This document shows positions 14,553 through 32,772 of a stretch of DNA of 64,000 nucleotides, piece after piece. The number at the start of each line of letters is the position of its first letter. The first letter of the stretch is position 1. The notes beneath the pieces were generated by a model. The model saw only the letters and a list, made by a program, of their open reading frames with translations. It was not told the origin of the DNA and did not search any database. Made by a program: the position numbers and the translations under genes. This DNA comes from an uncultured Desulfomonile sp. (lineage in GTDB: Bacteria > Desulfobacterota > Desulfomonilia > Desulfomonilales > Desulfomonilaceae): contig CAJBEZ010000037.1 in NCBI GenBank assembly GCA_903952205.1, forward strand, positions 248,001-312,000, read 5' to 3'.

Positions 14553-15686
14553 ATGATTAGATCAAATCCTGAAGAACTGATTCGAAAGAATATAGCCAGA
14601 TTTGTCGACAATGAAATTATTCCGATTGCCCAGGAATTGGACAACAAAGGTGAATTCCCTCGAGACATTTTTAAAAAGTTATCCAAAATGGGGATCTTCG
14701 GCATTCGTTATCCTCGTCACAGAGGCGGCTCAGGTGGGAATACGACTTTATTCTGCATAATCTGTGAAGAAATTAGCAGAGGATTGTTGAGTGTGGCGTC
14801 AATTGTCGCTATGCAAAGTTTGATGGGCACAAATTTTCTTTTCCATTACGGAACCGGGGAGATGTTTGAGGAATTCTTTTTACCGGCAATGCGGGGAGAG
14901 AAAATAGGCTGTTTTTGTATGACCGAACCCGATGCGGGTTCCGATTTGGGGGCGATAACGACAAGAGCCACTGAGGTTGACGATGGGTATCTGATAAACG
15001 GGATGAAAACCTGGGTCACCGACGGGCCTGAAGCCAGTTTTTACACGGTCATGTGTCAGACCGATCCGAGTAAGAGGCTCCGAGGGATTGGATATTTCTT
15101 TATTCCCCGTAATCTTCCCGGTGTTTCGCTCAGTTCGCGATTCCAGTGTTTGGGAACTCGCACAACACCGATTTGTGAAGTGGCCTTCAAAGATGTTTTC
15201 ATTCCAAAGGAATATCGGTTAACCCCTGAAGGGGAGGGCCTAAATGCGTTTCTTAAAATCATCGCCGAGATTCGGGCTATGACAGCCGCCTTGGCTCTTG
15301 GGTTGCAGCGCGCCGCAATGGCCGATTCCATCAAGTACGCTAATGAACGGATGGCTTCTGGTAAACCTATCGGGAAATTTCAACTTGTTCAGTCCAAGAT
15401 TGCAAACATGGCCACTAATTTAGAGGCTTCCAAATTAATGACCTACAGGGCCACCGCCATGATAGACGAGGGTAAGGAAGCATTGAAAGAAGCGACCATG
15501 GCAAAATATTTCGCCACTGAATCGGCTTGTAGCGCCTCCGACGAGTGCACACGTATTTTCGCTGGTTATGGCTATTCTATGGAATACACCGCTCAACGTT
15601 ATTTCCGTGATGCGCGATTTTTGCTCAACGGTGGTGGTACCCACGAAGTGTTACAGTGTAACATCGCGCGTTGGGTTGGAATTTGA
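14553..15686 (+). CDS. Acyl-CoA dehydrogenase, candidate aryl-malonyl/succinyl-CoA oxidising enzyme
   Basis: 377 residues, FAD-dependent acyl-CoA dehydrogenase family. Landmarks: CFCMTEPDAGSD (flavin site), GMKTWVTDG, and the C-terminal FAGYGYSMEYTAQRYFRDA. The usual catalytic Glu of the EGT motif is replaced by glycine (Gly361 in NGGGTHEV). Glu239, in AEIRA, aligns with the helix-G base used by isovaleryl-CoA and long-chain dehydrogenases, so the base has probably moved there. Next to a B12 mutase and Etf, it is the candidate for oxidising a branched or aryl-substituted malonyl-CoA, as IaaF (benzylmalonyl-CoA dehydrogenase) does in auxin degradation. Confidence 0.9.
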   Translation: MIRSNPEELIRKNIARFVDNEIIPIAQELDNKGEFPRDIFKKLSKMGIFGIRYPRHRGGSGGNTTLFCIICEEISRGLLSVASIVAMQSLMGTNFLFHYGTGEMFEEFFLPAMRGEKIGCFCMTEPDAGSDLGAITTRATEVDDGYLINGMKTWVTDGPEASFYTVMCQTDPSKRLRGIGYFFIPRNLPGVSLSSRFQCLGTRTTPICEVAFKDVFIPKEYRLTPEGEGLNAFLKIIAEIRAMTAALALGLQRAAMADSIKYANERMASGKPIGKFQLVQSKIANMATNLEASKLMTYRATAMIDEGKEALKEATMAKYFATESACSASDECTRIFAGYGYSMEYTAQRYFRDARFLLNGGGTHEVLQCNIARWVGI

Positions 15687-16496: not shown

Positions 16497-16892
16497 ATGG
16501 AATACAAAAAAAGAATTCGGGTCCTAATAGCCAAACCAGGGCTGGATGGCCACGATCGAGGAGCCAAAGTAATCGCGCTAGCCTTACGAGACGCCGGCAT
16601 GGAAGTTTTGTATTCAGGGCTTCATCAAAGTATTGATCAGATAGTTTCCACGGCGGTTCAGGAATCGGTTGATGTCATAGGTTTGAGCGTGATGACCGGG
16701 GCTCATCTATCGATTTCCAAACGATTGATGCAAACGTTACACGACAAAAAATTGTCCGACATTTTTGTGGTAGTTGGTGGCGTTATCCCCCAAAACGATA
16801 TTTCTAAACTTCAGGAAATCGGTGTTAAAGGGGTTTTCCCCGGAGGGACTCGGTTCGAAGTTATAGTTGATTCCATTCGGGCTTTGTTTTAA
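16497..16892 (+). CDS. B12-binding small subunit of a methylmalonyl-CoA mutase-family enzyme
   Basis: 131 residues, a stand-alone cobalamin-binding domain. The DxHxxG motif is seen as DGHDRG (residues 17-22); His19 would be the lower cobalt ligand. Later landmarks are GLSVMTGAH and the glycine-rich VVVGGVIPQ and FPGGTRF. It pairs with the large subunit 11 bp downstream to form an adenosylcobalamin-dependent acyl-CoA mutase. The split small/large arrangement is shared with isobutyryl-CoA, 2-hydroxyisobutyryl-CoA and the proposed aryl-succinyl-CoA mutases. Confidence 0.93.
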   Translation: MEYKKRIRVLIAKPGLDGHDRGAKVIALALRDAGMEVLYSGLHQSIDQIVSTAVQESVDVIGLSVMTGAHLSISKRLMQTLHDKKLSDIFVVVGGVIPQNDISKLQEIGVKGVFPGGTRFEVIVDSIRALF

Positions 16893-16903: not shown

Positions 16904-18532
16904 ATGGGTGTCGCAAAATATATAAAAAACCAGGCAGATGGCGTTGAAAAGGTAATTTACCAATCCGGAATCGAAGTAAAACCGAGCTATGGTCCAAAAG
17001 ATTTGGAGGCCATCGGTTTCGACTATGATGAGGATTTAGGGGACCCCGGACAATACCCGTTTACTCGTAGCATTCACCCCTTGGGTTATCGCTCCAGAGC
17101 ATGGACTACACGCCAATATACAGGGTTTGGGACGCCTCAGGACACAAATGAGCGTTTCAAATACATGATAGCTAATGGGCAGAATGGCCTGAATGTGGCT
17201 TTCGACTTACCTACCCAGATGGGTTATGACTCCGATAGCCCACAATCTGAGGGCGAAGTGGGACGGGTTGGTATGGCGGTCGATTCTTTGCAGGACTTTG
17301 AGATCGCCTTTAAGGACATACAGTTCGACAGGATCGGATCAGGCCTGACTATAAATGCAGTGGCCAGTATAATGCTGGCAATGTATCAGGCCACCGCCGA
17401 GAAGTTCGGCTATTCTAAGGAAACAATCAGCGCAACACCTCAAAACGACATACTGAAAGAGATGATCGGAAGAGGCGCATGGATTTTCCCGGTGGAGCCT
17501 AGTGTGAGACTGGTTTGCGACACCATTGAGTACTCAGTCAAGGAACTTCCAAGATGTAATCCAGTGAGCATTTGCGGTTATCACATTCGTGAATCGGGGG
17601 CTACGCCAAGTCAGGAAGTCGGTTTCGCGTTTGAGATAGCCAAGACATATATTGATAATCTTGTAGGTCGCGGTCTTTCGCCGGATGATTTTGTGGGCCG
17701 GTTTTCTTTCAACCTGAATGTCTTCGGTAACCTGTGGGAACAAATCGCTAAATTCCGTGCAGCTCGTAAGCTTTGGGCAAGACTGCTGAAGGAAGAATAC
17801 GGGGTGACTAACAGGAAAAACCAGTTTTTACGAGGCCTTTTTGGGGGCGGCGGTAGCGGATTGACCAAAGAACAGCCTGAAAACAATATCATCCGTGGCG
17901 CCTACTATGGGCTGGCGGCTGCGCTCAGTGGAGCTCAAACTACGGCGCTATGCTCTTTTGATGAAGCCTTCACGATACCAACCCCGAGGGCCGCTCTACT
18001 GTCGCTACGCACACTTGAGATTCTGATGGAGGAAGTGGGGTTACGAGACACCGTTGACCCACTTGCGGGGTCTTACTTTGTAGAAACCATCACCAAGGAG
18101 ATGGAAGGCAAGATTAAGGAAGAAATGCTGCGTGTCCAGAAGACAGGGGGTATGACAAAAGCAATTTCCTCAGGGTACATCCAGCGTGAGGTGGCCAGGC
18201 AAGCCTATGATTTCGAAAAAAGTCTCCAGAATGGTGAAATCATTAAAGTAGGTGTAAACAAATATGCCGAAGGTGATCAACCCGATGTTGAACTCCACGA
18301 ATACGACGATTCCTGGGTTAATACGCAGATTTCCAGACTGAAAGAGTTGCGACGAACGCGTGACAACCGTGAGGTTAATCGCTCATTAAAATCTCTTCAG
18401 AAAACAGCTAAATCGGGAAATAACGTTATGCCCGACCTAGTCGATTGTTGCCGGGCTTACGCGACGGTTGGTGAAATGACTGGTGTATTCCGGGATGTTT
18501 TTGGCGAGTGGGATGAACCTTGTTTATTCTAG
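16904..18532 (+). CDS. Large subunit of B12-dependent acyl-CoA mutase, methylmalonyl-CoA mutase-like active site
   Basis: 542 residues, the substrate-binding TIM-barrel subunit. Two specificity residues can be read: Tyr72 in TTRQYTG aligns with Tyr89 of methylmalonyl-CoA mutase (Phe in isobutyryl-, Ile in 2-hydroxyisobutyryl-CoA mutase), and Arg190 in MIGRGAW aligns with Arg207, which binds the substrate carboxylate (Gln in those others). The His of GYHIRESG is also kept. The enzyme should therefore act on a carboxyl-bearing, succinyl/malonyl-type CoA ester. The barrel is otherwise divergent (FGGGGSGL, ALSGAQTTALCSF), so a larger substrate such as (2-aminophenyl)succinyl-CoA is plausible. No MeaB-type chaperone gene is nearby. 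Confidence 0.9.
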   Translation: MGVAKYIKNQADGVEKVIYQSGIEVKPSYGPKDLEAIGFDYDEDLGDPGQYPFTRSIHPLGYRSRAWTTRQYTGFGTPQDTNERFKYMIANGQNGLNVAFDLPTQMGYDSDSPQSEGEVGRVGMAVDSLQDFEIAFKDIQFDRIGSGLTINAVASIMLAMYQATAEKFGYSKETISATPQNDILKEMIGRGAWIFPVEPSVRLVCDTIEYSVKELPRCNPVSICGYHIRESGATPSQEVGFAFEIAKTYIDNLVGRGLSPDDFVGRFSFNLNVFGNLWEQIAKFRAARKLWARLLKEEYGVTNRKNQFLRGLFGGGGSGLTKEQPENNIIRGAYYGLAAALSGAQTTALCSFDEAFTIPTPRAALLSLRTLEILMEEVGLRDTVDPLAGSYFVETITKEMEGKIKEEMLRVQKTGGMTKAISSGYIQREVARQAYDFEKSLQNGEIIKVGVNKYAEGDQPDVELHEYDDSWVNTQISRLKELRRTRDNREVNRSLKSLQKTAKSGNNVMPDLVDCCRAYATVGEMTGVFRDVFGEWDEPCLF

Positions 18533-18625: not shown

Positions 18626-20713
18626 ATGAAAAATAGATCATATCGGCTGGGCTGTGACATCGGAGGTACATTTACTGATTTTGTGCTTGCGGACGATGAA
18701 ACAGGAACGTTTTCCATATACAAATGTTTGACCACGCCGGCTGATCCTTCAGATGCCGTAGAGACAGGAATAAAGGCGCTGGAGAGCCAAGCTCCAGGAT
18801 TCATGGCCGAATTGGCGGAGATCATCCACGGCACCACTTTGGTTATCAATGCAATAATTGAGAGAAAAGGCGCCCGTACGGGATTGATAACCACCAAAGG
18901 ATTCAGAGACGTTCTGGAGCTTGGCCGTGAAATTCGCTATGACGCCTATGACATTTTCTCCGAATACCCGGAGCCGCTTGTCCCCAGAGCATTGCGAACG
19001 GAAGTGTTTGAAAGAATAACCAGCGATGGCCGTGTGATTCAATCTCTGGACCAAAATGAAGTCAAATTTGTTATTCGCTCTCTCATGGACGCTGGTATTG
19101 AATCGCTGGCGATCTGTTTGATTAATTCATATGAAAATCCGGAACATGAAGCGAAGATTAAAACATTGGCGGAAGAGTTAGCTCCAGGCTTGTCTGTTTC
19201 AGCGTCTTATGAAGTTTTACCCCAAATTAGAGAGTATGAACGAACTTCCACTACCGTCACGAACGCATACGTGAAGCCTATCACTGTCAAGTATCTGCAC
19301 AAACTTTCCACCCGTCTGCAATCACTGGGTTTCAACGGTAAGCTGTTTATCATGCTTTCTAGTGGAGGGATTACCACAGCCTCTACCGCTGGGGAATTCC
19401 CGGTGCGGATTATCGAATCAGGCCCAACGGCGGCCGTGATCGCTTCTCAACACTACGGCCGTATGTTTGGAATCAAAGACATTTTTTGTTTCGATATGGG
19501 CGGGACCACCGCCAAATCATGTCTTATTCAAAAAGGAGAGGCCGGGTTGGTTTCGACTTTTGAAGTTGGACGTGTTCAGCGTTTCAAAAAGGGCAGCGGA
19601 CTGCCAATTCAAGTTCCCGTGGTCGATTTGATGGAGATTGGCGCTGGAGGGGGCAGCATTGCGCGCATCAGCAAAATGGGTCTTTTACAGGTGGGTCCTG
19701 AGAGCGCTGGGGCCGCCCCCGGACCAGCCTGCTACGCACTGGGCGGTGAAGACCCTACGGTGACGGACGCTGATTTAACACTAGGTTATTTGGATCCGAA
19801 CTATTTTCTGGGTGGCGCCATGCCGTTGGATTTGAATGCCGCTCATCGGGCAATTGATGGAAAAGTCGCCAAACCGCTAAACGCGACTTTGATCGAAGCG
19901 GCGTTTGGCATCCATGATTTGATTAACGAGACCATGGCGGCTGCGGCTAAAACCCATATAGCTGAAAAGGGAGGCAACCCTAACAATGTTACGCTGACCG
20001 CCTTTGGTGGAGCAGGCCCGGTACACGCCTACGGATTAGCGAGAAAAATCGGAGCGCCTCGAATAATAGTACCGCCATTGGCAGGCGTTGGTTCGGCTTT
20101 AGGTTTTTTCACAGCTCCGGTGGCGTTCGATCTTGTACGAAGCCATCGGGTTGGATTGGATGAAGCGGATTTCCAAGGCATTGAAAAGCTTTTTACAGAT
20201 TTGGAAGAGGAGGCTTCAGCAATTCTAAAACAAAGCGGTGATGTGGATGGTATTAAGTTTACTCGCTCTACTGACATGCGGTTTCTGGGACAGGGGGCTG
20301 AAACGAACCTGCAGATTCCCAACAAGGCTTTCAATGACTGGCGAAAAAATGAAATTCGTCACTTTTTTGATGAGAGCTATAAACGGCTTTATGGCCGTAC
20401 TTACCCAGACACACAAGTGGAGTTCATATCTTTTAGAGTACGCGCCAGTCTTCCGCAACATCCTTTCCAAATCCCTCGCATAGCCCCCACAGAAGGGACG
20501 CTTCAAGATTGTGTTAAAGGAAATCGCACGGCTTTTTCTTTAATCCAAAAGCAATTCATTACCTTTACAGTCTTTGATAGGTCCAAATTATTCCCCGGGG
20601 CCGGGATCAAAGGTCCAGCCATTATTGAAGAAAGAGAATCAACGATTGTGTTGGGTGAGGACGCCAACGCGGAAGTCGATGACTACGGTTTCGTTTGGAT
20701 AACATTTGTGTGA
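18626..20713 (+). CDS. hyuA: Hydantoinase/oxoprolinase family subunit A (ATP-dependent)
   Basis: 695 residues, full length. The N-terminal nucleotide motif CDIGGTFTDFVLAD and a second phosphate motif FDMGGTTAKSCL define the actin-like HyuA/oxoprolinase fold; EIGAGGGSIAR and GGAGPVHAYGLA are further signatures. With HyuB it couples ATP hydrolysis to opening a cyclic amide; other relatives are acetone and acetophenone carboxylase subunits. With a Mo hydroxylase and a B12 mutase alongside, ring opening of a lactam such as 2-oxoindoleacetate is the best-fitting role. GGAG precedes the ATG. Confidence 0.9.
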   Translation: MKNRSYRLGCDIGGTFTDFVLADDETGTFSIYKCLTTPADPSDAVETGIKALESQAPGFMAELAEIIHGTTLVINAIIERKGARTGLITTKGFRDVLELGREIRYDAYDIFSEYPEPLVPRALRTEVFERITSDGRVIQSLDQNEVKFVIRSLMDAGIESLAICLINSYENPEHEAKIKTLAEELAPGLSVSASYEVLPQIREYERTSTTVTNAYVKPITVKYLHKLSTRLQSLGFNGKLFIMLSSGGITTASTAGEFPVRIIESGPTAAVIASQHYGRMFGIKDIFCFDMGGTTAKSCLIQKGEAGLVSTFEVGRVQRFKKGSGLPIQVPVVDLMEIGAGGGSIARISKMGLLQVGPESAGAAPGPACYALGGEDPTVTDADLTLGYLDPNYFLGGAMPLDLNAAHRAIDGKVAKPLNATLIEAAFGIHDLINETMAAAAKTHIAEKGGNPNNVTLTAFGGAGPVHAYGLARKIGAPRIIVPPLAGVGSALGFFTAPVAFDLVRSHRVGLDEADFQGIEKLFTDLEEEASAILKQSGDVDGIKFTRSTDMRFLGQGAETNLQIPNKAFNDWRKNEIRHFFDESYKRLYGRTYPDTQVEFISFRVRASLPQHPFQIPRIAPTEGTLQDCVKGNRTAFSLIQKQFITFTVFDRSKLFPGAGIKGPAIIEERESTIVLGEDANAEVDDYGFVWITFV

Positions 20714-20728
20714 CTTGGAGAAATTAAC

Positions 20729-22453
20729 ATGCGGGAAAAGTTCGATCCGATTACACTTGAAATTCTCTGGCGCCGACTAATATCAATTGTAGATGAAGCT
20801 GACGCCTCAGTGGCGCGCACGGCCTTCTCCAGTCTTCTGCGAGATGCTCACGATTACACATGCATGTTCACTGATAGGCAGGGCAGGGAGCTTGTGCAAG
20901 GCACTCTTTGCACTCCTGGAATGGCTGGCGCTATGGCACTGGGGGTAAAGAAAATTGTCCACTCTTTTAGATATGCTGAATATAAACCAGGCGATGTACT
21001 AATTGTTAATGATCCATGGTTGCTGGCAGGGCATTTGAATGATGTGTGCGTGCTAAGTCCCATATTTTACCAAGAGCGAATTGTAGCTTTCACCGCATGC
21101 GTTTTTCACCACTCCGATATTGGAGGCCGTGTCGCTTCTGATAACCGAGAAGTTTATGAAGAGGGCCTTTTTATACCACCCCTGAAACTTTATGAAGCTG
21201 GAACCCTGAATGAATCTGTGTTGAATCTGATCCGCTGGAATGTGCGGACTCCAGAGCAGGTCATTGGCGATATTCGATCACAGGTGGCGTCCAATCATGT
21301 TTGCGCGGAAAAAGTTGTAGAGATGCTCTCTGATGAAGGGCTTGATGACCTGGAAGATCTTGCCGAGGAAATAATTTGCCGAACCGAAACAAGTATGCGA
21401 AGAGCTATCGAAAAAATCCCCAACGGTCAGTATTGTTATCAAGGCCTTATAGAAGGGGCCGGGAAACGGGACGACATAAGCGTTAATCTGGCTGTCAATG
21501 TCATCGACAGTGACATTCTGGTAGATTTTGACGGCACTTCTCCGCAGGTCAATTGGGGCGTAAATGTAGTATACAATTTTACTTACGCATATGTGTTCAT
21601 GGCTCTAAAAAGCGCGTTCGATCCCGATATTCCCATTAACGAAGGCGCTGCGCGACCAATTAAAATGGTGGCTCCGGATGGCTGCGTAGTGAACTGCAGT
21701 TTTCCCGCAGCAGTAGCAGCCCGAATGCAGGTTGGTCATTTCATGACAGAAATGGTCTTTCGAGCGCTTGCTCCGGCGGTCCCTGATCGCATAATCGCAG
21801 GGAGTGGAGGGACTCCCGCTCAAACCAACATTTTTTACGGTCGGGATCGCAATGGCAAACCATGGCACACCATGATCATACGAGGGGGAGGAATGGGGGC
21901 CGGTAAGTCAATGGACGGACACCATTGCGCTATTTTCCCTGCCAACGGAGCCAACACTCCAGTGGAAATACTGGAAAGCGATACACCACTAGTAGTTGAA
22001 GAACGATCCTTGCTTCCCGATTCTGGCGGTCCAGGTAAAAAACGCGGCGGGTTAGGCCGAAAAATGGTCATCCGTGTGCCGAATGACCAGTCAACACCTC
22101 TGTATCCGGTGACGATCGCGGTTCAAGCGGGCCGGTTCAAATATCCCCCGGAGGGACTTTTTGAAGGCGGCCAAGGATCCAAGGCCCTTTTTTTAAGGAA
22201 TGGAGAATCAGCGGACCCTAGTGGCCTGACATTTGCCGAACCTGGTGACCGGGTTGAGTTCTTTAGCGCAGGTGGAGGAGGTTACGGTTCTCCCTTGGAC
22301 CGTGATCCTCAAGAAGTTGTTCAGGATGTTCTAAACGGATATGTGAGCCTGGAAAGGGCTTATGAAGATTATGGCGTAGTCATTTTGCGGGACACCCTTA
22401 AATTGGATGAATCGGCGACTGCTGATCGCCGTAAAGGACGTCAGTTAAGGTGA
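20729..22453 (+). CDS. hyuB: Hydantoinase/oxoprolinase family subunit B
   Basis: 574 residues, HyuB type. Landmarks are FDPITLEILWRRL at the start, GDVLIVNDPWLLAGHLND in the core and LPDSGGPGKKRGGLG near the C-terminus. It forms the hydrolytic half of the ATP-dependent enzyme with HyuA, 15 bp upstream. The small third subunit of acetone carboxylase is absent from this locus, which favours hydrolysis of a cyclic amide over ketone carboxylation. Confidence 0.9.
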   Translation: MREKFDPITLEILWRRLISIVDEADASVARTAFSSLLRDAHDYTCMFTDRQGRELVQGTLCTPGMAGAMALGVKKIVHSFRYAEYKPGDVLIVNDPWLLAGHLNDVCVLSPIFYQERIVAFTACVFHHSDIGGRVASDNREVYEEGLFIPPLKLYEAGTLNESVLNLIRWNVRTPEQVIGDIRSQVASNHVCAEKVVEMLSDEGLDDLEDLAEEIICRTETSMRRAIEKIPNGQYCYQGLIEGAGKRDDISVNLAVNVIDSDILVDFDGTSPQVNWGVNVVYNFTYAYVFMALKSAFDPDIPINEGAARPIKMVAPDGCVVNCSFPAAVAARMQVGHFMTEMVFRALAPAVPDRIIAGSGGTPAQTNIFYGRDRNGKPWHTMIIRGGGMGAGKSMDGHHCAIFPANGANTPVEILESDTPLVVEERSLLPDSGGPGKKRGGLGRKMVIRVPNDQSTPLYPVTIAVQAGRFKYPPEGLFEGGQGSKALFLRNGESADPSGLTFAEPGDRVEFFSAGGGGYGSPLDRDPQEVVQDVLNGYVSLERAYEDYGVVILRDTLKLDESATADRRKGRQLR

Positions 22454-22540: not shown

Positions 22541-23833
22541 ATGCCCAAAACCTTTATGCCGTCTTTTGCAAATATTTCAGAATTGCAGAGCCACCAACTG
22601 GAATGTCTCAAATGGACAGTGCGGCACGCCTACTCAGGTTCAGAACATTATAGAGGCGCAATGGAACAGGTGGGTCTGAAGCCCGAGGATATTCAATCCC
22701 TGAATGATATTGAGAAATTACCACTCACAACGGCAGACGATTTGAAATCGGGGTACCCTTTTCCGCTCTTGTCAGTGCCCTTATCCGATGTAGTCCGCAT
22801 TCACGCATCCTCCGGCACCACTGGTAAACGTAAAATCCTCACTTATACACAAAATGATCTGGAAGACTGGGCCAATTTTTTTGCCAGGTGCTATGAAATG
22901 GCCGAACTTACAGTAGAAGATCGAGTTCAAATTGCAGTGGGTTATGGCGTGTGGACTGCAGGGGTAGGTTTCCAGTTGGGATGCGAGCGTTTTGGCGCTA
23001 TGGCTGTACCTGTGGGGCCTGGAAATGTCGACATGCAATGTGAATTTTTGGTCGACCTGCAGTCAACGGTTTTGTGTTGCACTGCGTCCATGGGACTTCT
23101 CATGGCCGAGGAAGTGAACCGCAGAGGCCTCAGCGATAAAATCGCCCTCAAAAAAATGATTTTTGGGTCTGAGCGGAGCAGCGACGCCATGCGACAACGA
23201 ATTGGGGATTTGCTAGGTTTAGAACATATGTTCGATATTCCAGGAATGACCGAATTGTATGGTCCGGGAACCGGACTAGACTGCACGCGACATGAAGGTA
23301 TTCACTATTGGGCCGATTACTACATCTTGGAGATCCTTGACCCGGATACCCTAAAACCTGTTCCTCCAGGCGAAATAGGTGAAATGGTCGTTACAACTCT
23401 GAAAAAAGAGGCGGTTCCATTGATTCGCTACCGCACGCGCGATCTTACTCGCTTGATCGAACATCCATGCTCTTGCGGTAATATTCTGCCACTTCACGAT
23501 CGAATCCTGGGACGCTCCGATGACATGATCATTTTTCGAGCAGTAAATATTTATCCCGGTCAAATTGATTCAGCGCTTTCAAAAATTGATGACATAGGTT
23601 CTGAATACCAGATTATAATTGATCGCGGTGATGATGGCCGAGATTACATGACTTTACGTGTGGAGAGTCACGAGAGCGCTGAAAAAGATAAACAAGCGGA
23701 AATCAAGCGTAAAGTCGAAGCTGCCATAAAAAAGGCTCTCTTGGTGAGTTGTAATGCCGAAGTCAATAATCATGGCTCCATGCCCCGTTCTGAAAGAAAA
23801 TCCAAGCGCGTTTTTGACAACCGTCCTTCGTAG
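22541..23833 (+). CDS. Phenylacetate-CoA ligase-like (PaaK family) AMP-forming ligase
   Basis: 430 residues, the normal PaaK length. The adenylate phosphate loop HASSGTTGKRK, the motif GMTELYGPG and the zinc-finger-like CSCG of PaaK enzymes can be seen. It converts an aryl-acetic-type acid, ATP and CoA to the acyl-CoA. In the auxin pathway the corresponding ligase (IaaB) makes indoleacetyl-CoA. It lies between hyuB and the Mo hydroxylase genes in the same direction, with GAGGTG upstream of the ATG. Confidence 0.9.
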   Translation: MPKTFMPSFANISELQSHQLECLKWTVRHAYSGSEHYRGAMEQVGLKPEDIQSLNDIEKLPLTTADDLKSGYPFPLLSVPLSDVVRIHASSGTTGKRKILTYTQNDLEDWANFFARCYEMAELTVEDRVQIAVGYGVWTAGVGFQLGCERFGAMAVPVGPGNVDMQCEFLVDLQSTVLCCTASMGLLMAEEVNRRGLSDKIALKKMIFGSERSSDAMRQRIGDLLGLEHMFDIPGMTELYGPGTGLDCTRHEGIHYWADYYILEILDPDTLKPVPPGEIGEMVVTTLKKEAVPLIRYRTRDLTRLIEHPCSCGNILPLHDRILGRSDDMIIFRAVNIYPGQIDSALSKIDDIGSEYQIIIDRGDDGRDYMTLRVESHESAEKDKQAEIKRKVEAAIKKALLVSCNAEVNNHGSMPRSERKSKRVFDNRPS

Positions 23834-23906
23834 AAATTTCTATCTCTGATTTGTGTCGAGCGCATGTTCGCCTGTCTTAGCTTAAAACCATTTAGGCGAG
23901 GTAATG

Positions 23907-24794
23907 ATGAAAAAATTTAAATATCTAATCCCCAAAACGCTTGATGAAGCCGTTTCATTGCATCAGTCTCACGGGGGTTCAGCCATGTACGTGGCCGGAG
24001 GAACGGACGTAATAGTCAAAATCACGTCTGGTAAACTCGCTCCCGATTATCTGATCTCTTTAAAACATATCGATGGGCAATCTCAACTCGAGTTGAATAC
24101 GGAAACCGGCGTGTTTTGCATAGGTGGCTTGGTCACTCACCGCACACTGGAGATGTCATCGGTTATAAGACTACAATACCCCATCATACATGACGCCGTT
24201 CAGCGAATAGGATCAACACAAATTAGGAATGTCGCCACAATTGGTGGCAACCTTGTCAACGCAGTTCCGTCTGCAGACGGCGCTATACCGCTGATTGCGC
24301 TGGACGCTCGCTTAAATATTTACGGAAGCACAGGGGAACGCAGTGTCGATCTGATTCATTTTTTTCAAGGTCCAGGTCAAACGGTCCTAGATAGGGGAGA
24401 AATTGTCACCAAAATTATTGTTCCCAAACAATCCAAGCGAACTGGCGCAGCATACCAGAAATTTGGGCGTAGAGCCGCCATGGAACTTCCTTTAATTGGA
24501 GTAGGCGTTCTGATTATTCTCGAAGAAGGTTCAAATCGATGCGCCAAGGCCAGGATAGCCTTGGGCGTAGCCGCCCCGACACCAATTCGGACTTTGAGCG
24601 CTGAACGATACCTAGTTGGAAGGGAAATTACTGAAGATACTTTGAATGAGGCCGGAAAACTGGCAGCGGAGGAATCTCGAGTTCGAGACAGTGTTCGAGG
24701 TTTGGCTTGGTATCGGCGTGAAATGGTAGCGGTTCTGGTTCAACGTATGGGCATGAAATGTTTGCAGAGGATCAAAGAATCAGAAGGCCGTTAA
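23907..24794 (+). CDS. Mo hydroxylase FAD subunit (first set, CoxM/XdhB type)
   Basis: 295 residues. FAD-binding motifs typical of the xanthine-oxidase family medium subunit: YVAGGTDVIVKI near the start and QIRNVATIGGNLVNAVPSAD in the middle. It lacks the cysteine-rich [4Fe-4S] insertion found in the second set. It carries electrons from the Mo/2Fe-2S subunits to an acceptor. I chose the second of two adjacent ATGs (23907) because GAGGT sits at a better distance. The subunit order M-S-L is classical for this family. Confidence 0.9.
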   Translation: MKKFKYLIPKTLDEAVSLHQSHGGSAMYVAGGTDVIVKITSGKLAPDYLISLKHIDGQSQLELNTETGVFCIGGLVTHRTLEMSSVIRLQYPIIHDAVQRIGSTQIRNVATIGGNLVNAVPSADGAIPLIALDARLNIYGSTGERSVDLIHFFQGPGQTVLDRGEIVTKIIVPKQSKRTGAAYQKFGRRAAMELPLIGVGVLIILEEGSNRCAKARIALGVAAPTPIRTLSAERYLVGREITEDTLNEAGKLAAEESRVRDSVRGLAWYRREMVAVLVQRMGMKCLQRIKESEGR

Positions 24795-24963: not shown

Positions 24964-25476
24964 ATGTCCAGAGAGATAAAACTTATGTTGAACGGCAATC
25001 AAATATTTGTAGCGATAGAAGATAACTGGACTCTCTTATACCTATTGCGTGAAAAACTTGGTTTGACGGGAGTAAAGGAAGGCTGCGGCCAAGGCGAATG
25101 TGGCGCCTGCACGGTTATTGTGGACGGTCTGGCGGTAAATTCGTGCATTTACTTTGCTGTAGAGGTTGATGGAAAGGACGTTCTGACTATAGAGGGGCTA
25201 GCTGCCGCCGATGGAACATTGCATCCTCTACAGAAATCATTTGTTGAAAACGGAGGCATTCAGTGTGGCTTCTGCACCCCGGGGATGATTCTGTCTGCAA
25301 AGGCCCTGTTAGACGAAAACCCTCAGGCCACTGAGGCGGACATCAAACAGGCGCTAGCTGGAAATCTATGCCGTTGCACTGGGTATGTTCAGATTGTCGA
25401 ATCAGTCGAGGCTGTGGTCGATAAAAGTTCTGAAGACATAAATGTAGTGGTCCGAGAAACCGGGGAGTCGGGTTAA
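24964..25476 (+). CDS. Mo hydroxylase 2x[2Fe-2S] subunit (first set, CoxS type)
   Basis: 170 residues. The plant-type ferredoxin cluster motif is CGQGECGACTV and the second, helical cluster domain shows CGFCTPGM and CRCTGY. It relays electrons from the Mo site to FAD. It is separated from the FAD subunit gene by 169 bp with no gene in it and lies 139 bp before the likely start of the Mo subunit. Confidence 0.92.
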   Translation: MSREIKLMLNGNQIFVAIEDNWTLLYLLREKLGLTGVKEGCGQGECGACTVIVDGLAVNSCIYFAVEVDGKDVLTIEGLAAADGTLHPLQKSFVENGGIQCGFCTPGMILSAKALLDENPQATEADIKQALAGNLCRCTGYVQIVESVEAVVDKSSEDINVVVRETGESG

Positions 25477-25615
25477 CTCCAATGACTCGAATGGCCATGT
25501 TCAAAAAGATTTTCGGTAAATTAGAGCCACAACTCGTAGCTGAGCCAACAAACATCTCTTGCAAACTGTGTTATATGTGACCGACGACCAGGAAAGGAAG
25601 GGTAATAAAGAGATC

Positions 25616-27928
25616 ATGGAAGAATTCACGGTGATTGGGAAAAGGATCTCAAAAGTTGACGCCGTAGATAAGGCCACAGGTCGTGCCCTATATATTCAGG
25701 ATTTTAAACTTCCTGGAATGCTATATGGAAAGATCCTTTATAGCAAATACCCGCACGCTCGCATTATAAGGGTCAACACTGAAAAGGCCAAAGCCTTACC
25801 AGGCGTCATAACGGTGTTAACAGGTGAAGATATTCCTCCTGTTCGCCTTGGTGTTTACAAGGACAACCCTCCCCTGAAGGCCGGGAAAGTAAGGTCTTAC
25901 AGGGATGAAGTGGCCGCGGTCGCGGCCACGGACCTGGAAACCGCCAGAGAAGCCATTAATCTAATTGAGGTAACTTATGAAGCCGTTCCAGCAATTTTTG
26001 ACCCTGAAGAAGCCCTAAAACCTGAAGCGCCCCTGGTCCACGAAAATCACAAGACCAACCTTCTAAAGATGCCTTGGAATCTTCATTATGGAGATGTAGA
26101 GGCAGCCAAAATTGAAGCGGCTTTTAACGTTGAGGAGCGTTTCTCTACCACTTGGGTTACTCACTGCTGTATGGGAACAAGTGGAGCGATTGCTGATTTT
26201 GATCATGCGGACAATTTAACAGTATATACTAACACACAAATACCTTCTCTAGCCCAAAAGGATTTCCAGGAGACGTTGAAGGTCCTAGGTTTTAAAGACA
26301 AGCGAGTGAGAGTCATTAAACCATGTATTGGTGGGGGGTTTGGTAGCAAACTGGATACCTACGCGTATGAACACGTGGCCATTCTTCTTGCCTGGCGCTC
26401 GCGTCGTCCAGTCAAAATAGTGTTTGAACGTGAAGAAGAATTTTGTGCGACGTCCCCACGTCAACCAACCGTTACATATATTTCCATGGGGTGCGACAAA
26501 GAAGGCAAACTGCTCTACCGTGATATGTCAATGGTTCTGGATAATGGAGCATATACATCATGGGGAGCGACCACTCCATCGGTCATGATGATGCCGATCA
26601 CATCTCTCTACCGGGTGCCAAATGTCCGCTATAACGCTAAATGTGTGTATACCAACAACACATATTCACAAGCTATGCGTGGCTATGGCAACCCTCAAGC
26701 TACCTTTGCCATCGAGAGCGCTATGGATATGCTTGCCGAAGCTGCGGGGATTGATCGTGTTGAATTTAGACGGATAAATTCAAACCAGCCGGGTGATGTG
26801 ACACCCCAAGGTCTAAAAATAACAACCTGCGGACTTCCAGAATGTATAGAAGCGGTCTCAAGAGACCTCGAATTCGGTAGACCCAGGGAAAAAGGCGTTG
26901 GTGTTGGTTTAGCGTCGTTGATACATGTTGGTGGTGGCGCCAGAATTTATAAATCCGATGGTTGTGGCACTATCATCAAGATGGATGATTACGGTAAAGT
27001 CGATGTGTTCACAGGCGCTTCGGATATGGGCCAGGGAGCTGATACAATAATAGCCCAGATTGTAGCTGAAGAACTCGGGGTGAAAGTGGAAGATGTTCAT
27101 GTCTTCCATCAAGATACTGACATCTGCCCTTGGGATGTAGGGGCCCACGCCAGTCGCACTACTTTTGTAGCCGGCAATTCAGCCCTAGGAGCAGCCAGGA
27201 AAATACGACATCGTCTTTTGAATATGGCGTCTGAGACCACGGGGATCGACGAAGACAAACTGACCCTAAAAAATAGAGCGTTTTTTGCAGACGGCAAACA
27301 GGTGTTGCCAATTGGAAAACTCTTGCGAGGTTCCCATTTTAAGCCTAGAGGCGAAATGATGATGGCCGACAATTTTTATGATCCCCCCAACGAAAATATG
27401 GGCCGTGATTTTAGTGGGAACATGTCTGCAACTTATTCATTTGGCACACATGGCGTTAGGGTAAAAGTGGATGAGGCGACCGGCAAAGTCGAAATTCTTG
27501 ATTACATCGCCGCTCATGATGTTGGTCGGGCCATCAATCCCATGTTGCTCGACGGCCAAGTCCATGGCGGTGTTCTGATGGGAGTAGGTTATGCTCTAAC
27601 CGAACAGGTTATATTAGAGAACGGGCGAAACATGAACCCCGATTTTCGGGACTATAAGATCTTGACCGCAATGGATGCGATTCACTCGAAGGCAGTTGTC
27701 ATAGAAACCGTTGACGAACAGGGCCCGTTTGGCGCAAAGGGCATTGGCGAGCCTGGATGTGTTCCGACAGCCCCTGCAATAGCTAACGCCATCTATGACG
27801 CCATCGGCGTTAGGATCAAGGACCTCCCTATAACCCCGGAAAAGGTTCTTGCAGCCATCAAAAAGAAAAATGGCGCCGTTAGCTGTGGAATTGACGCGTT
27901 CACCCAAAAAGAACAGCCATGTGAATGA
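25616..27928 (+). CDS. Mo hydroxylase molybdopterin-binding subunit (first set, CoxL/XdhA type)
   Basis: About 770 residues from ATG 25616; an in-frame TTG at 25559 is the only upstream alternative. Cofactor landmarks: IGGGFGSKLDTYAYEH, AMRGYGNPQATFAIE, DMGQGADT, and the catalytic-glutamate motif GAKGIGEPG near the C-terminus, all intact. Enzymes of this family hydroxylate electron-poor carbons with water as oxygen source, often next to the N of a heterocycle. It is therefore the best candidate for the first attack (for example C2 of the indole ring). A selenium-dependent variant is possible because of the YqeB-type gene at 31918. Confidence 0.92.
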   Translation: MEEFTVIGKRISKVDAVDKATGRALYIQDFKLPGMLYGKILYSKYPHARIIRVNTEKAKALPGVITVLTGEDIPPVRLGVYKDNPPLKAGKVRSYRDEVAAVAATDLETAREAINLIEVTYEAVPAIFDPEEALKPEAPLVHENHKTNLLKMPWNLHYGDVEAAKIEAAFNVEERFSTTWVTHCCMGTSGAIADFDHADNLTVYTNTQIPSLAQKDFQETLKVLGFKDKRVRVIKPCIGGGFGSKLDTYAYEHVAILLAWRSRRPVKIVFEREEEFCATSPRQPTVTYISMGCDKEGKLLYRDMSMVLDNGAYTSWGATTPSVMMMPITSLYRVPNVRYNAKCVYTNNTYSQAMRGYGNPQATFAIESAMDMLAEAAGIDRVEFRRINSNQPGDVTPQGLKITTCGLPECIEAVSRDLEFGRPREKGVGVGLASLIHVGGGARIYKSDGCGTIIKMDDYGKVDVFTGASDMGQGADTIIAQIVAEELGVKVEDVHVFHQDTDICPWDVGAHASRTTFVAGNSALGAARKIRHRLLNMASETTGIDEDKLTLKNRAFFADGKQVLPIGKLLRGSHFKPRGEMMMADNFYDPPNENMGRDFSGNMSATYSFGTHGVRVKVDEATGKVEILDYIAAHDVGRAINPMLLDGQVHGGVLMGVGYALTEQVILENGRNMNPDFRDYKILTAMDAIHSKAVVIETVDEQGPFGAKGIGEPGCVPTAPAIANAIYDAIGVRIKDLPITPEKVLAAIKKKNGAVSCGIDAFTQKEQPCE

Positions 27929-27958: not shown

Positions 27959-28987
27959 ATGCGCTTACCACCTTTTGCTTATGAGCGACCTCGGGACCTA
28001 TATGAGGCTCTGGAACTTTTGAACACCTTTGGCAAGGACTGCAGAGTTCTCGCTGGAGGAACAGATCTTTTGGTTCGAATGAAACAGGGTCTTGCTACGC
28101 CGTCACGTTTGATCAGTCTCAAGGATTTGCCGGAACTGGCTACGATCAATGAGTCGGATGGTTTCCTCAATATAGGAACTGCGGTCAAGCTGGCGGATAT
28201 TTTGGCTTACGAGCCGATTCAGTATCGCTGGCCTGGGCTCCTTGAAGCTGTTAAGTCAGTTGGAGCGCCTTCGATACAACATTTTTCCGGAACCATCGGG
28301 GGAAATCTGTGCCAGGATAACCGGTGCCAATTTTATAATCAGTCAAAGTTCTTTAGGCAGGCGAGACAAACCTGCAACAAAGCAGGTGGCAACACATGCT
28401 TCGCCTGGAAAGGCGGATCGGATAAATGTCATTCAATCTGTCAATCAGACTCCGCCCCAATACTAATTGCCATGGATGCGAGGATAACAATTAAGTCAAA
28501 GAATGAATCTAGAACGATACCTCTTGAGGAATTGTATTCTTCTGTCGGAGAAAGACCATTAACTCTTGCCGATGATGAAATGCTAACTGAAATTCACGTG
28601 CCAGGACCGGTTCCCGGCGCAGGGTGCGCGTTTGAAAAACTAACTTACCGCTCCTCCATTGATTATGCGGTGGTTTCCGCCGGGGCCTATGTGCAAACGG
28701 ACGGTAGTAAGACGGTAAATGCCCGGCTTATAATTGGAGCTGTTGCCAGGGGTCCTCTTGCAATAGCCGCAGTCGAAAAAACACTTAAAGACAGAACCGC
28801 AGGTGATGAAGAGGCTATAGACCAAGCGGGCAGGGAGGCCATGAATGCCGCGGAGGCTTTTATTGCAAACAACATAACCCAGCCGGTCGAATACAGGACC
28901 CAAATGGTCTCGGTGATAACGAAACGGGCACTAAGTCGGGCTACCAAGAGGGCGCTTTCTCACACAGACGTGTCGGAGGCAAAATGA
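27959..28987 (+). CDS. FAD and [4Fe-4S] subunit of a 4-hydroxybenzoyl-CoA reductase-type enzyme (second set, beta)
   Basis: 342 residues. FAD motifs VLAGGTDLLVRM and SGTIGGNL are present. Between them and the C-terminal domain is a cysteine-rich insertion with Cys118, 123, 139, 147, 157 and 161. Cys123, 139, 147 and 157 match the spacing of the [4Fe-4S] ligands of 4-hydroxybenzoyl-CoA reductase beta subunit, a feature almost unique to that subfamily; it lets the enzyme run as a reductase driven by ferredoxin. Strong GGAGG ribosome site; overlaps the next gene by 4 bp (ATGA). Confidence 0.9.
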   Translation: MRLPPFAYERPRDLYEALELLNTFGKDCRVLAGGTDLLVRMKQGLATPSRLISLKDLPELATINESDGFLNIGTAVKLADILAYEPIQYRWPGLLEAVKSVGAPSIQHFSGTIGGNLCQDNRCQFYNQSKFFRQARQTCNKAGGNTCFAWKGGSDKCHSICQSDSAPILIAMDARITIKSKNESRTIPLEELYSSVGERPLTLADDEMLTEIHVPGPVPGAGCAFEKLTYRSSIDYAVVSAGAYVQTDGSKTVNARLIIGAVARGPLAIAAVEKTLKDRTAGDEEAIDQAGREAMNAAEAFIANNITQPVEYRTQMVSVITKRALSRATKRALSHTDVSEAK

Positions 28988-29463
28988 ACAAACAGTCATT
29001 AGAAATAATAATTAATGGGGAAAAATATTCCCTAGCGGTTGAACCAAATCGTACGCTTTTGGAAATGCTAAGGGACGATCTTGAACTAACCGGCGCTAAA
29101 GAAGGTTGTGGAGAAGGGGTTTGCGGTTCTTGCACTGTCCTTATGGACGGGAAGCCCGTCCGTTCCTGCCTGACTCTAGCGTTGGAGGCTTCCGGGTCAC
29201 ACGTTACAACTGTAGAAGGACTAGCTCAACATGGTGAACTTGATCCTCTGCAGCAGTCATTTATTGACCATGGCGCCGTTCAGTGCGGGTTTTGTACGTC
29301 CGGTATGCTGATGGGCGCAAAAGGGCTTTTACTGGAAAATCCACATGCTGGGGCAAAAGAAATTCGAAATTCGCTTAGCGGTCATATTTGCCGATGCACG
29401 GGATATACAAAGATTGTAGAGGCTGTGGAATCCGTGGTGGAAAGTTCAAAGGAAAAGAGGTAG
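28984..29463 (+). CDS. 2x[2Fe-2S] subunit of the second Mo enzyme (gamma)
   Basis: 159 residues, with cluster motifs CGEGVCGSCTV, CGFCTSGM and CRCTGY. Translationally coupled to the FAD/[4Fe-4S] subunit by an ATGA overlap and followed after 6 bp by the Mo subunit. The order beta-gamma-alpha in one tight unit indicates a three-subunit enzyme distinct from the first set. It shuttles electrons between FAD/[4Fe-4S] and Mo. Confidence 0.92.
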   Translation: MNKQSLEIIINGEKYSLAVEPNRTLLEMLRDDLELTGAKEGCGEGVCGSCTVLMDGKPVRSCLTLALEASGSHVTTVEGLAQHGELDPLQQSFIDHGAVQCGFCTSGMLMGAKGLLLENPHAGAKEIRNSLSGHICRCTGYTKIVEAVESVVESSKEKR

Positions 29464-29469
29464 GGCCCA

Positions 29470-31812
29470 ATGTCTAACTATGCCTTAGTCGGAAAGAACA
29501 TGCCACGAGTGGATAGCAAAGCCAAGGTCACCGGTCAAGCTTTGTTTACAGCGGATCTCAAGTTTCCCAAAATGTTGGTGGGAAAGATCCTCCGAAGCCC
29601 CCATCCTCATGCTCGAATTGTTGACATAGACATATCGGCGGCTCTCAATATTCCGGGGGTTAAAGCGATAGTTACCGGACACGACACTATACAGAGAAAA
29701 TGGGGAGTTTTTGGCTATACTCAGGATCAGCTATTCCTTCCCGCAGATAAAGTACGATTTATTGGTGAAGAGATAGCGGCCGTGGCGGCCATCGATGAGG
29801 ATACGGCCCAACAGGCCATAGATTGTATTCGTGTAGAATACGAAGTTCTTGACGCCGTTTTCGACATTATGGAATCGCTAGCGCCGGATGCGCCTCTCCT
29901 GCACGAAGATTTTCCTCACAACATCAACGTCCATGTTCCCATAAATGTGGGCGATGTTGAAAAGGGTCTTGCTGAATCCTATTACGTTCGGGAGGATACT
30001 TTCACGGCGGTTGAGGATTCTTATTTTCAGGGTGAGCCATATGCCGTAGTCGCTCGGTTCGACATGGACAACAACCTGGAAATTTGGATGCCAAACGCTG
30101 GGCCGCATATGAAAGCCAAACCTCTTTCCAACGCCTTAGGCATACCGTTAAACAAGGTACGAGTGCGAAAAATTACCATTGGTGGCGCTTTTGGGGGACG
30201 AAGCGAGATTGCGCCTGCCGATCTTATCTGTGCGCTACTTGCGCGTAAATCGTCCAGACCCGTGAAGATAGTGTATACCCGAGAGGAGAACTCAATAGCG
30301 ACTCGTCAGGGTCATGCGCTGATCACTACCATCAAAACCGGGGTTGGCCAAGATGGCAGGGTCATTGCTCGGGATATAACCTGTTATATGGATGGGGGAG
30401 CCTATAGCTCAACCGGGCCGATCGCCGTGAGCGTTCCTTTTTTGTGCATGGAACAAGCTTACAAAATGGAACACGTGCGCTATAACGGTTACCGCGTTTA
30501 CACCAACAAGCCCCCAAGAGGTATGATCAGAATTCATGGAAGGGCCTTCGCTTGTGGTGTCGACACTCAGTTGGACATGATTGGAGATCATTTGGGGATA
30601 GATCCGGTGACAATGAGACTGGTTAACGCCAGGGAGGCCGGGGAGTTCACCAACACAAAATCTCATGTGGCAAGTTGCGCCATGAAGGATACCATCACCA
30701 AGGCCTCAGATCGAGCAGGCTGGAAAGAAAAATGGGGCAAACTTCCACCATTACGCGGCATCGGTATTGGCTGTAATTCGGTTCAGACTGGATTTCCCAT
30801 GGGAATCCGCGGGGGATCGCAGGCCACAATTAAACTAAATGAGGATGGCGGGGCTACGGTCATTTCTGGTGTGGTGGATAACGGCCAGGGGAACGACAAC
30901 ATGCTTGTCCAGATTACGGCCGAAGAACTGGGTATTCGGCCAGAAGACGTACAGCTGGTTACTGCGGACACTGAAGTGACGTCATCGGACCCAGGAGCTT
31001 ATTCTCAGGTCTCTACTTTTATTGGTGGTCATGCGGTAAAAAACGCCGCCGAAAACGTTAGAAAACAGCTTTTTGATGCTGCGTCCAAAGTTTTGAAGGT
31101 TGACCCCGATGATTTGATGGCTCGAGATCGTATGATTTGTGTAAAAGGCTCACCAACGGAGACAGGCATACCACTAAAAAAAGTAATTAGAATGATCCTT
31201 GCCAGTGGGAAATCGGTCAGCGGGCAAGGGGAATACTGGCCCAAAGTGGACCCCAAAAGGGAGTGGGTCAAGAATCCTTTTGGACAAATGTGCGGAGCTT
31301 TTTCTTTCGGGACTACGGTTGCGGAAGTTGAGGTAGATTCGGAAACCGGCAAGGTAAAAGTTATCGAAGTTACTGTAGCCCAGGACGTGGGTTTTGCTTT
31401 GAACCCCCTTGTGATAGAGGGTCAATTTCAGGGTTCTGTTGCAATGGGTGGACAGGGCGGAATATTAACCGAGGGGCACGTTTGGGACAAAGGATCAGTT
31501 TTGAATCCTACACAACTCGAATACAAGGTCCCCTTGGCCTGTGATATGCCAAAAATCAACACTATCATAGTTGAATCCAATGATCCTGAAGGACCTTACG
31601 GGACCAAAGAGTCGGGAATGTCCATCGCCATGTCGGCTGCTCAGGCGTATGCGGCTGCGGTTAGCAACGCAATCGGGGTTTACATGACCGATTTTCCTCT
31701 AACTCCGGACAAGGTCCTGGGGGCTTTGCAAAACAAGATGGAACTGGAGACCCCAAATCAGAATGAAGATGTAATGGAAAAGACTCTTGAATTGGTTGTG
31801 CCGGCGGTTTAG
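29470..31812 (+). CDS. Molybdopterin subunit of the second Mo enzyme (alpha), missing the usual catalytic Glu
   Basis: 780 residues, xanthine-oxidase family Mo subunit. IGGAFGGRSEI and VDNGQGNDN fit the cofactor site. Two canonical sites are altered. The RGYG-type motif reads RGMIRIHGR, and the C-terminal motif reads GTKESGM where the family has GAKxxGE, so the catalytic glutamate position is Met717 (codon at 31618-31620). The gene is otherwise intact and co-translated with its partner subunits, so it is not simply decaying. It may bind substrate or catalyse in a non-standard way, or reduce rather than hydroxylate. Confidence 0.88.
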   Translation: MSNYALVGKNMPRVDSKAKVTGQALFTADLKFPKMLVGKILRSPHPHARIVDIDISAALNIPGVKAIVTGHDTIQRKWGVFGYTQDQLFLPADKVRFIGEEIAAVAAIDEDTAQQAIDCIRVEYEVLDAVFDIMESLAPDAPLLHEDFPHNINVHVPINVGDVEKGLAESYYVREDTFTAVEDSYFQGEPYAVVARFDMDNNLEIWMPNAGPHMKAKPLSNALGIPLNKVRVRKITIGGAFGGRSEIAPADLICALLARKSSRPVKIVYTREENSIATRQGHALITTIKTGVGQDGRVIARDITCYMDGGAYSSTGPIAVSVPFLCMEQAYKMEHVRYNGYRVYTNKPPRGMIRIHGRAFACGVDTQLDMIGDHLGIDPVTMRLVNAREAGEFTNTKSHVASCAMKDTITKASDRAGWKEKWGKLPPLRGIGIGCNSVQTGFPMGIRGGSQATIKLNEDGGATVISGVVDNGQGNDNMLVQITAEELGIRPEDVQLVTADTEVTSSDPGAYSQVSTFIGGHAVKNAAENVRKQLFDAASKVLKVDPDDLMARDRMICVKGSPTETGIPLKKVIRMILASGKSVSGQGEYWPKVDPKREWVKNPFGQMCGAFSFGTTVAEVEVDSETGKVKVIEVTVAQDVGFALNPLVIEGQFQGSVAMGGQGGILTEGHVWDKGSVLNPTQLEYKVPLACDMPKINTIIVESNDPEGPYGTKESGMSIAMSAAQAYAAAVSNAIGVYMTDFPLTPDKVLGALQNKMELETPNQNEDVMEKTLELVVPAV

Positions 31813-31917: not shown

Positions 31918-32772
31918 ATGGTGGTTATGAACGAGACACATACAATACCTATGATGCTCTCTGACCTGAAAATACTGATTCGTGGAGCCGGAGAAATGGC
32001 GACGGGTAGTGCCTGTCGGCTTTATCATTGTGGCTTTTCAAGGATGCTTTTGACTGAGATCGAGAAACCCCTTGCTGTTAGACGCTCAGTCAGTCTATGC
32101 GAGGCTGTGTATGAAAAAAGCTGGATAGTCGAAGACGTAAGAGCGGAACTCATAAATAGTGCCGAAGAAACCCAGGGGCTTTGGGAAAAGAAAACAATAC
32201 CAGTCCTGGTCGATCCTGCCCTTTCTTGCCTGAATGTTTTTAGGCCCGATGTCCTGATTGACGCCATACTTGCCAAGAAAAACCTTGGGACTTCGATGGA
32301 AAGCGCTCCCTTGGTAATTGCCATGGGTCCAGGTTTTTGGGCCGGCAAGGATGCTCATTACGTGATAGAGACTGCTAGAGGCCACCAATTGGGCAGGCTA
32401 ATTTCAGCCGGCTGCTCTTCTCCCAACACGGGAATACCCGGTGAAATTGGCGGACATTCAGTTTTTAGAGTTGTCAGGTCGCCAACGGAAGGGATTTTCC
32501 TATCAAGTTTGTCCATAGGTGTGTCTGTTAAAGAAGGGCAGATCATTGGCAATGTTTCTGGTAAACCTGCAAAAGCTGGGTTGGACGGCGTATTAAGGGG
32601 ATTGATCAAACCCGGGAGCTATGTGACACCAAATCTGAAAATAGGAGACGTCGATCCGCGCGGCGATCCATCCTATTGCATGACAATTTCAGAAAAAGCT
32701 AGAGCTATTGGCGGAACGGTACTGGAGGCTATACTTAGGACCTATAACTCGACCTATTCCCTAAGTAGCTAG
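31918..32772 (+). CDS. YqeB/EF2563-type accessory protein of selenium-dependent Mo hydroxylases
   Basis: 284 residues. The opening IRGAGEMATGSACRLYHCGF and TEIEKPLAVRRSVSLCEAVY are the signature of the EF2563/YqeB family, found with selenium-dependent molybdenum hydroxylases (nicotinate dehydrogenase, purine hydroxylase type). Later stretches are IAMGPGFWAGKDAHYVIET and VSVKEGQIIG. It is thought to help mature or insert the labile-selenium Mo cofactor. As last gene of the catabolic run it suggests that one of the two upstream Mo enzymes carries such a centre. Start uncertain: ATG 31918 or 31927 (the latter has GGTGG upstream). Confidence 0.82.
   Translation: MVVMNETHTIPMMLSDLKILIRGAGEMATGSACRLYHCGFSRMLLTEIEKPLAVRRSVSLCEAVYEKSWIVEDVRAELINSAEETQGLWEKKTIPVLVDPALSCLNVFRPDVLIDAILAKKNLGTSMESAPLVIAMGPGFWAGKDAHYVIETARGHQLGRLISAGCSSPNTGIPGEIGGHSVFRVVRSPTEGIFLSSLSIGVSVKEGQIIGNVSGKPAKAGLDGVLRGLIKPGSYVTPNLKIGDVDPRGDPSYCMTISEKARAIGGTVLEAILRTYNSTYSLSS

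Follow-up and report, generated by a model that had tools for sequence, protein, structure and literature searches.

The molybdenum subunit encoded at positions 29470 to 31812 of the window, by which we mean the whole stretch of 64,000 nucleotides analysed here, lacks the glutamate that is catalytic in the xanthine-oxidase family, and it shares this loss with an entire clade of orthologues. We term this subunit Mo2. The conserved clade without the glutamate is almost certainly tied to anaerobic indole metabolism. Because the enzyme is wired like a reductase and sited among genes for anaerobic auxin breakdown, its role is probably an undescribed reduction in the oxygen-free breakdown of auxin.

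An intact three-subunit enzyme without the catalytic glutamate

Mo2 is encoded by an uninterrupted open reading frame of 780 amino acids. It carries the Pfam domain Ald_Xan_dh_C together with both MoCoBD domains, and its AlphaFold2 model (pLDDT 91.3, pTM 0.90) has the fold of the xanthine-oxidase family, with 1RM6 as the nearest structure (TM 0.92). Within this family it is related to 4-hydroxybenzoyl-CoA reductase (HCR), whose alpha subunit in 1RM6 is also the closest solved structure by sequence (E 2e-137). The HCR equivalog model TIGR03194 scores Mo2 at 652.6 bits, below its cut-off of 994.55. The enzyme and the positions discussed below are the following.

27959 to 28987, forward strand: FAD subunit (FAD2) with an HCR-type [4Fe-4S] insert; full-length match to TIGR03195, below cut-off
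28984 to 29463, forward strand: [2Fe-2S] subunit (FeS2) with Fer2 and Fer2_2 domains
29470 to 31812, forward strand: Mo2, with MoCoBD_1, MoCoBD_2 and Ald_Xan_dh_C domains; top PDB match 1RM6 alpha
30529 to 30549, forward strand: altered loop R354-I-H-G-R-A-F360, which is RGxGxPQ in most relatives
31618 to 31620, forward strand: ATG codon of Met717, at the position of HCR Glu726 and first residue of the predicted helix 717-735

The genes for FAD2 and FeS2 share a 4-base overlap and Mo2 starts 6 bases past the end of FeS2, in agreement with the initial annotation, which had described three intact and tightly coupled subunits. A HMMER alignment that is free of gaps around the motif places GTKESGM of Mo2 under GAKEASE of 1RM6, so that Met717 falls on HCR Glu726 and the catalytic glutamate of the C-terminal GxKxxGE motif is absent. 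The loss read from the codon at 31618-31620 is thus confirmed, both by the alignment with HCR and by the homologues described below. In hydroxylases of the family this glutamate activates the Mo-OH group (PMC10420851, PMC4726530).

We considered whether Glu714 of the KESG stretch is a displaced catalytic residue, which the initial annotation had named as a finding that would overturn its claim. Glu714 aligns with the first glutamate of KEASE in HCR and is invariant in the clade, and HCR as well as many glutamate-bearing paralogues (KEAGE, KEVGE) have both residues. Since HCR carries this glutamate in addition to Glu726, Glu714 is ruled out as a stand-in. A base error at the Met717 codon was likewise rejected, because the same residue class is found in closely related genomes that were assembled independently.

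The loss is old and maintained in a whole clade

Orthologues were taken from two collections, namely 16 loci from a search for relatives (the gene of the window and 15 others, 56-90% identical) and 80 named loci from representative genomes in GTDB; the genomes compared are mostly metagenome-assembled. Some genomes sit in both collections, and the counts given here are aligned rows rather than independent genomes. Across about 80 orthologues from Desulfobacterota, Chloroflexota and other genomes, methionine or leucine occupies the site wherever it is readable and glutamate occurs in none: 72 of the 83 clade rows have Met and 11 have Leu. The homologue search suggested earlier therefore shows a change common to the whole clade. 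Among 79 paralogue rows the catalytic site is Glu in 74, with two Gln, two gaps and a single Met, the latter being a clade member that the filter had missed.

A maximum-likelihood tree of 55 thinned sequences separates the clade from all others by a single branch, 0.57 long and with support of 100/100; a leucine group branches early and the methionine group is nested. Comparison of Mo2 with orthologues that are 82-90% identical gave pN/pS values of 0.09-0.13, with synonymous sites near saturation. From the clade-wide Met or Leu, the fully supported branch and these pN/pS values it follows that the loss of the glutamate is old, fixed and maintained in the clade under strong purifying selection. 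The earlier judgement that the gene is unlikely to be junk is borne out by the conservation across the clade and a pN/pS of about 0.1, and decay to a pseudogene was rejected on the same value and the occurrence in independent genomes.

Two HCR-like sequences outside the clade, L140 (G075) and L144 (G221), carry Gln at the position of the catalytic Glu and group together in the tree; by their sequences this is apparently a second, independent loss.

Further changes around the active site are specific to the clade. Position 355, the glycine of RGFG or RGYG elsewhere, is Thr, Val, Ile, Cys or Met throughout, the PQ pair after the loop has become [Ala/Gly/Ser]-Phe with Arg358 invariant, and residues 513-514, elsewhere an SR pair, are [Gln/Met]-[Val/Cys/Ala/Ile]. 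The initial annotation had noted a change from RGYG to RGMIRIHGR. This stands for Gly355 and extends to the PQ and SR pairs, whereas Arg354 and the histidine are not unusual: His356 is invariant in the clade but is also the residue of HCR at this position (RGHG). HCR Tyr326, which we take to line the HCR pocket, aligns with Val322 of Mo2.

In the leucine group (L108, L109, L110, L112, L114-L117 and others) a cysteine follows directly after the loop arginine, as RCHGR or GCHGR, and six rows of the group also lack the loop arginine. This cysteine presumably corresponds to the copper-binding Cys388 of CO dehydrogenase.

Mo2 lies in an anaerobic indoleacetate cluster

Judged by their predicted products, the window genes around Mo2 are an anaerobic indoleacetate (iaa) cluster:

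8424 to 9566, forward strand: saccharopine-dehydrogenase-like (SDH-like) reductase, repeatedly found beside Mo2
9587 to 10834, forward strand: HemL-like class III aminotransferase, repeatedly found beside Mo2
11191 to 12378, forward strand: family III CoA-transferase, IaaL-like role
12428 to 14516, forward strand: EtfB and EtfA
14553 to 15686, forward strand: acyl-CoA dehydrogenase with GGG motif (LLNGGGTHE), IaaF-like
16497 to 16892, forward strand: B12-binding mutase small subunit, IaaH-like
16904 to 18532, forward strand: B12 mutase large subunit, IaaG-like; Tyr and Arg of methylmalonyl-CoA mutase kept
18626 to 20713, forward strand: ATP-dependent lactamase subunit of HyuA/CapA type; top model caprolactamase alpha at 554 bits, below cut-off
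20729 to 22453, forward strand: ATP-dependent lactamase subunit of HyuB/CapB type; top model caprolactamase beta, below cut-off
22541 to 23833, forward strand: PaaK-type CoA ligase, IaaB-like role
23904 to 24794, forward strand: FAD subunit of the first Mo enzyme (FAD1), without a 4Fe-4S insert
24964 to 25476, forward strand: [2Fe-2S] subunit of the first Mo enzyme
25559 to 27928, forward strand: Mo1, catalytic glutamate kept (GAKGIGE)
31918 to 32772, forward strand: YqeB, (selenium-dependent) Mo hydroxylase maturation; TIGR03309 at 341.6 bits, cut-off 220

The mutase large subunit has RQY and GRGAWIFP where 2-hydroxyisobutyryl-CoA mutase has RQI and AQKEYIYP, and the neighbour loci likewise keep the Tyr and Arg. 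We take this Tyr and Arg (Ile and Gln in 2-hydroxyisobutyryl-CoA mutase) to be what is expected for a dicarboxylyl-CoA substrate. The GGG that replaces YEG is diagnostic of IaaF (PMC8360864); it is present in the window gene and in 30 of 30 IaaF-like loci checked from the phylum. A 2-oxoindoleacetyl-CoA lactamase has been predicted for the iaa pathway (PMC5214803), in line with the HyuA/B caprolactamase match, and an ETF is present in iaa operons of strict anaerobes and sulfate reducers (PMC8360864). The lactamase, CoA ligase, CoA-transferase and ETF are assigned by family match only, and no iaa equivalog model matched. A CoA ligase that adjoins Mo2 in Desulfomonile-like genomes fell into no specific family and names no substrate, and a look for iaa genes on plasmids as a source of Aromatoleum homologues yielded nothing useful.

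Mo1-type subunits also occur in iaa-like operons of genomes in which Mo2 was not found. Mo1 is the probable indoleacetyl-CoA hydroxylase, and because of this distribution it would fit the hydroxylation of the indole, with Mo2 acting in a later, separate step. In one locus (L094, G046) the glutamate-bearing and the glutamate-less large subunits abut directly, and neither a FAD nor an FeS gene separates them. About 3-5 kb to the left of the window, at G000:C37:242934-245231, the genome encodes a third HCR-like enzyme that has kept the glutamate.

The association with indole degradation extends across the phylum

Presence was called, at the thresholds used, in a set of 297 genomes from the phylum. 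Of these, 41 have Mo2, 48 an IaaF-like protein, 41 Mo1 and 26 the SDH-like reductase. Mo2 occurs together with IaaF in 31 of its 41 genomes (expected 6.6, p 2.3e-21), with Mo1 again in 31 of the 41 (p 7.9e-25), and in 23 of the 26 genomes with the SDH-like reductase (p 3.6e-20); these p-values ignore shared ancestry and therefore overstate independence. The link between Mo2 and IaaF is strong, yet not obligatory, since at these thresholds Mo2 was not detected in 17 of 48 IaaF genomes and IaaF not in 10 of 41 Mo2 genomes. Co-occurrence with the ring-cleavage hydrolase TIGR03200 (33 of 41 Mo2 genomes, expected 10.9, p 5e-15, with the same reservation) does not separate the models of Mo2 function discussed below; TIGR03200 marks the benzoyl-CoA pathway in general.

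A recurring operon joins Mo2 to a VOC protein resembling methylmalonyl-CoA epimerase, the SDH-like reductase and the HemL-like aminotransferase, also where no iaa genes are nearby. At one locus (L209, 14871-19895) the genes after the Mo2 module encode TrpB2, a class I aminotransferase and IorA, of which IorA scores above its cut-off, and this gene set suggests an entry from indole or tryptophan to indoleacetyl-CoA. In the window the epimerase-like protein is present as a remnant only, upstream of the SDH-like gene: a stretch of 22 residues at 8251-8316 on the forward strand matches the C-terminus of the protein found beside Mo2 elsewhere (64%).

The wiring of FAD2 points to a reductive enzyme

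Cys123, 139, 147 and 157 of FAD2 align with Cys122, 138, 146 and 155 of the beta subunit of HCR (1RM6_B). All four cysteines are kept in 66 of 66 clade FAD2 sequences, as in HCR, while FAD1 of the neighbouring Mo1 enzyme has none of them. For HCR, the title of Unciuleac 2004 (cited in PMC10420851) speaks of an additional [4Fe-4S] cluster and an inverted electron flow. It is chiefly these predicted [4Fe-4S] ligands that favour a reductive role and speak against a dead scaffold. From the conserved cysteines and the iaa gene context we infer, with some confidence, that the Mo2 enzyme works reductively on an aryl-CoA. A chemistry other than hydroxylation, as the initial annotation predicted, is likely. 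Its step from the missing glutamate to reductive dehydroxylation does not hold: HCR is a known reductive dehydroxylase and keeps Glu726, so loss of the glutamate by itself predicts no such reaction.

The iaa pathway runs to 2-aminocinnamoyl-CoA and onward by beta-oxidation (PMC8360864). The expected product would be 2-aminobenzoyl-CoA, the amino group of which would have to go before or during degradation of the ring, and a low-potential Mo enzyme of HCR type encoded in the same clusters is a natural candidate for this step. It may be, though we say so with reserve, that the clade fills the gap that follows 2-aminobenzoyl-CoA when auxin and indoles are degraded anaerobically, whether it cleaves the C-N bond reductively or reduces the ring in a Birch-type reaction. 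Our tentative prediction is the former, namely that Mo2-FAD2-FeS2 is an active, HCR-derived enzyme that reductively deaminates 2-aminobenzoyl-CoA in anaerobic indoleacetate or indole degradation. Electrons would enter through the additional [4Fe-4S] cluster of FAD2 and pass via two [2Fe-2S] clusters to the molybdenum, where the substrate, most likely 2-aminobenzoyl-CoA, would lose its amino group as ammonia to give benzoyl-CoA. Without equivalents of Glu726 and Tyr326 the pocket near the molybdenum would be apolar, and the Mo-OH would not be activated for hydroxylation. Protonation would have to come from elsewhere, with the invariant His356 as one candidate. In Desulfatiglans anilini, HCR-like proteins are already suspected to deaminate 4-aminobenzoyl-CoA reductively (putative reductase, loci 03875/03876; PMC7500099); we liken them to Mo2 by description only, and there the amino group is para, versus ortho in the substrate proposed here. 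Three observations speak against deamination by Mo2. HCR retains its glutamate for a related reductive reaction, which leaves the loss unexplained, the Glu-bearing HCR-like paralogue left of the window could do the deamination instead, and the SDH-like and HemL-like genes beside Mo2 would be superfluous.

Because plain deamination leaves these module genes and the VOC gene unexplained, a second reading is kept alive, although we consider it unlikely. In a Birch-type reaction Mo2 could partly reduce the ring of 2-aminobenzoyl-CoA, or of an aryl-CoA like it, and leave the nitrogen in place, and the HemL-like and SDH-like enzymes would then remove the nitrogen from an alicyclic beta-aminoacyl-CoA. 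To our knowledge ring reduction is without precedent in the xanthine-oxidase family. The SDH-like gene, present alongside Mo2 in nearly all genomes that have it, is missing at the threshold used from 18 of the 41 Mo2 genomes, and the substrates assigned to both module enzymes are putative. The reductive wiring of FAD2 suits ring reduction too, as does the recurrent order in which the epimerase-like, SDH-like and HemL-like genes come after FAD2, FeS2 and Mo2, even away from iaa genes. In addition, the HemL-like enzyme Kat is a beta-aminoacyl-CoA transaminase (PMC3149608).

It is improbable that Mo2 adds another oxidative hydroxylation to the indole pathway, by a mechanism independent of the glutamate. 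Fold and family are those of hydroxylases and the gene adjoins Mo1 and YqeB, but the glutamate is what activates Mo-OH in these enzymes (PMC10420851, PMC4726530), the extra [4Fe-4S] ligands are conserved, and Mo1-type genes already provide a hydroxylase in these operons. Still less probable is a subunit that is catalytically dead at the molybdenum and serves Mo1 as a scaffold or electron-transfer partner. Loss of both the glutamate and the SR pair, the position next to Mo1 and the abutting large subunits in L094 would suit such a partner; against it, the clade conserves the [4Fe-4S] ligands, Mo1 is missing from several genomes with Mo2, and in most loci Mo2 is accompanied by FAD and FeS subunits of its own. 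The non-catalytic role that the initial annotation had considered is thus possible, yet disfavoured by the complete cofactor wiring. A non-redox hydratase or isomerase is very improbable given the conserved redox chain, and the analogy on which it leaned was dropped, as the hydratase role once proposed for the xanthine-oxidase-like MhyADH was withdrawn in favour of an alcohol dehydrogenase (PMC4052635).

Relation to known enzymes and pathways

The known enzyme nearest to that of Mo2 is HCR (HcrABC of Thauera aromatica, 1RM6), which it resembles in sequence (36% identity), fold (TM 0.92), three-subunit composition, the [4Fe-4S] insert of the FAD subunit and the RxHG loop. The Mo2 enzyme differs in Met717 for Glu726, Val322 for Tyr326, the replaced Gly355 and the lost SR pair, and also in its gene context and in its TIGR03194 score of 652.6 against the cut-off of 994.55. 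The context genes match the roles of IaaB, IaaL, IaaF, IaaGH, the lactamase and the ETF in the iaa pathway known from Aromatoleum aromaticum and from sulfate reducers (PMC8360864, PMC5214803), and the literature found describes no glutamate-less enzyme of HCR type among its members (PMC8360864, PMC5214803). A second reductive member of the family is the urolithin C dehydroxylase Ucdh of Enterocloster bolteae, which is nearest to HCR (PMC12771579). It acts on a phenol; we set it beside Mo2 by description, and found no statement on its glutamate (PMC12771579).

HCR and Ucdh are two kinds of reductive member, and the clade without the glutamate suggests that there is a third. As a large natural group that lacks a supposedly essential residue and keeps its redox centres, it tests how far the chemistry of the xanthine-oxidase family can shift. 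If the substrate is 2-aminobenzoyl-CoA, the clade would supply an enzyme that removes an amino group reductively from an aromatic ring, a reaction postulated for anilines since 1991 (Schnell and Schink, as cited in PMC7500099) and for which we found no isolated enzyme in the literature. The same reading, if true, would correct the automatic annotation of clade genes as xanthine dehydrogenase or HCR.

Two further observations concern the genome. SelD is encoded at G000:C10:29947-30867, with an in-frame TGA in its match, and together with YqeB beside Mo2 this makes a selenium-dependent maturation of the Mo hydroxylase possible. Some 9 kb further left of the third HCR-like enzyme lie genes that, judged by eye, resemble UbiD/UbiX and phenylphosphate-synthase-type proteins.
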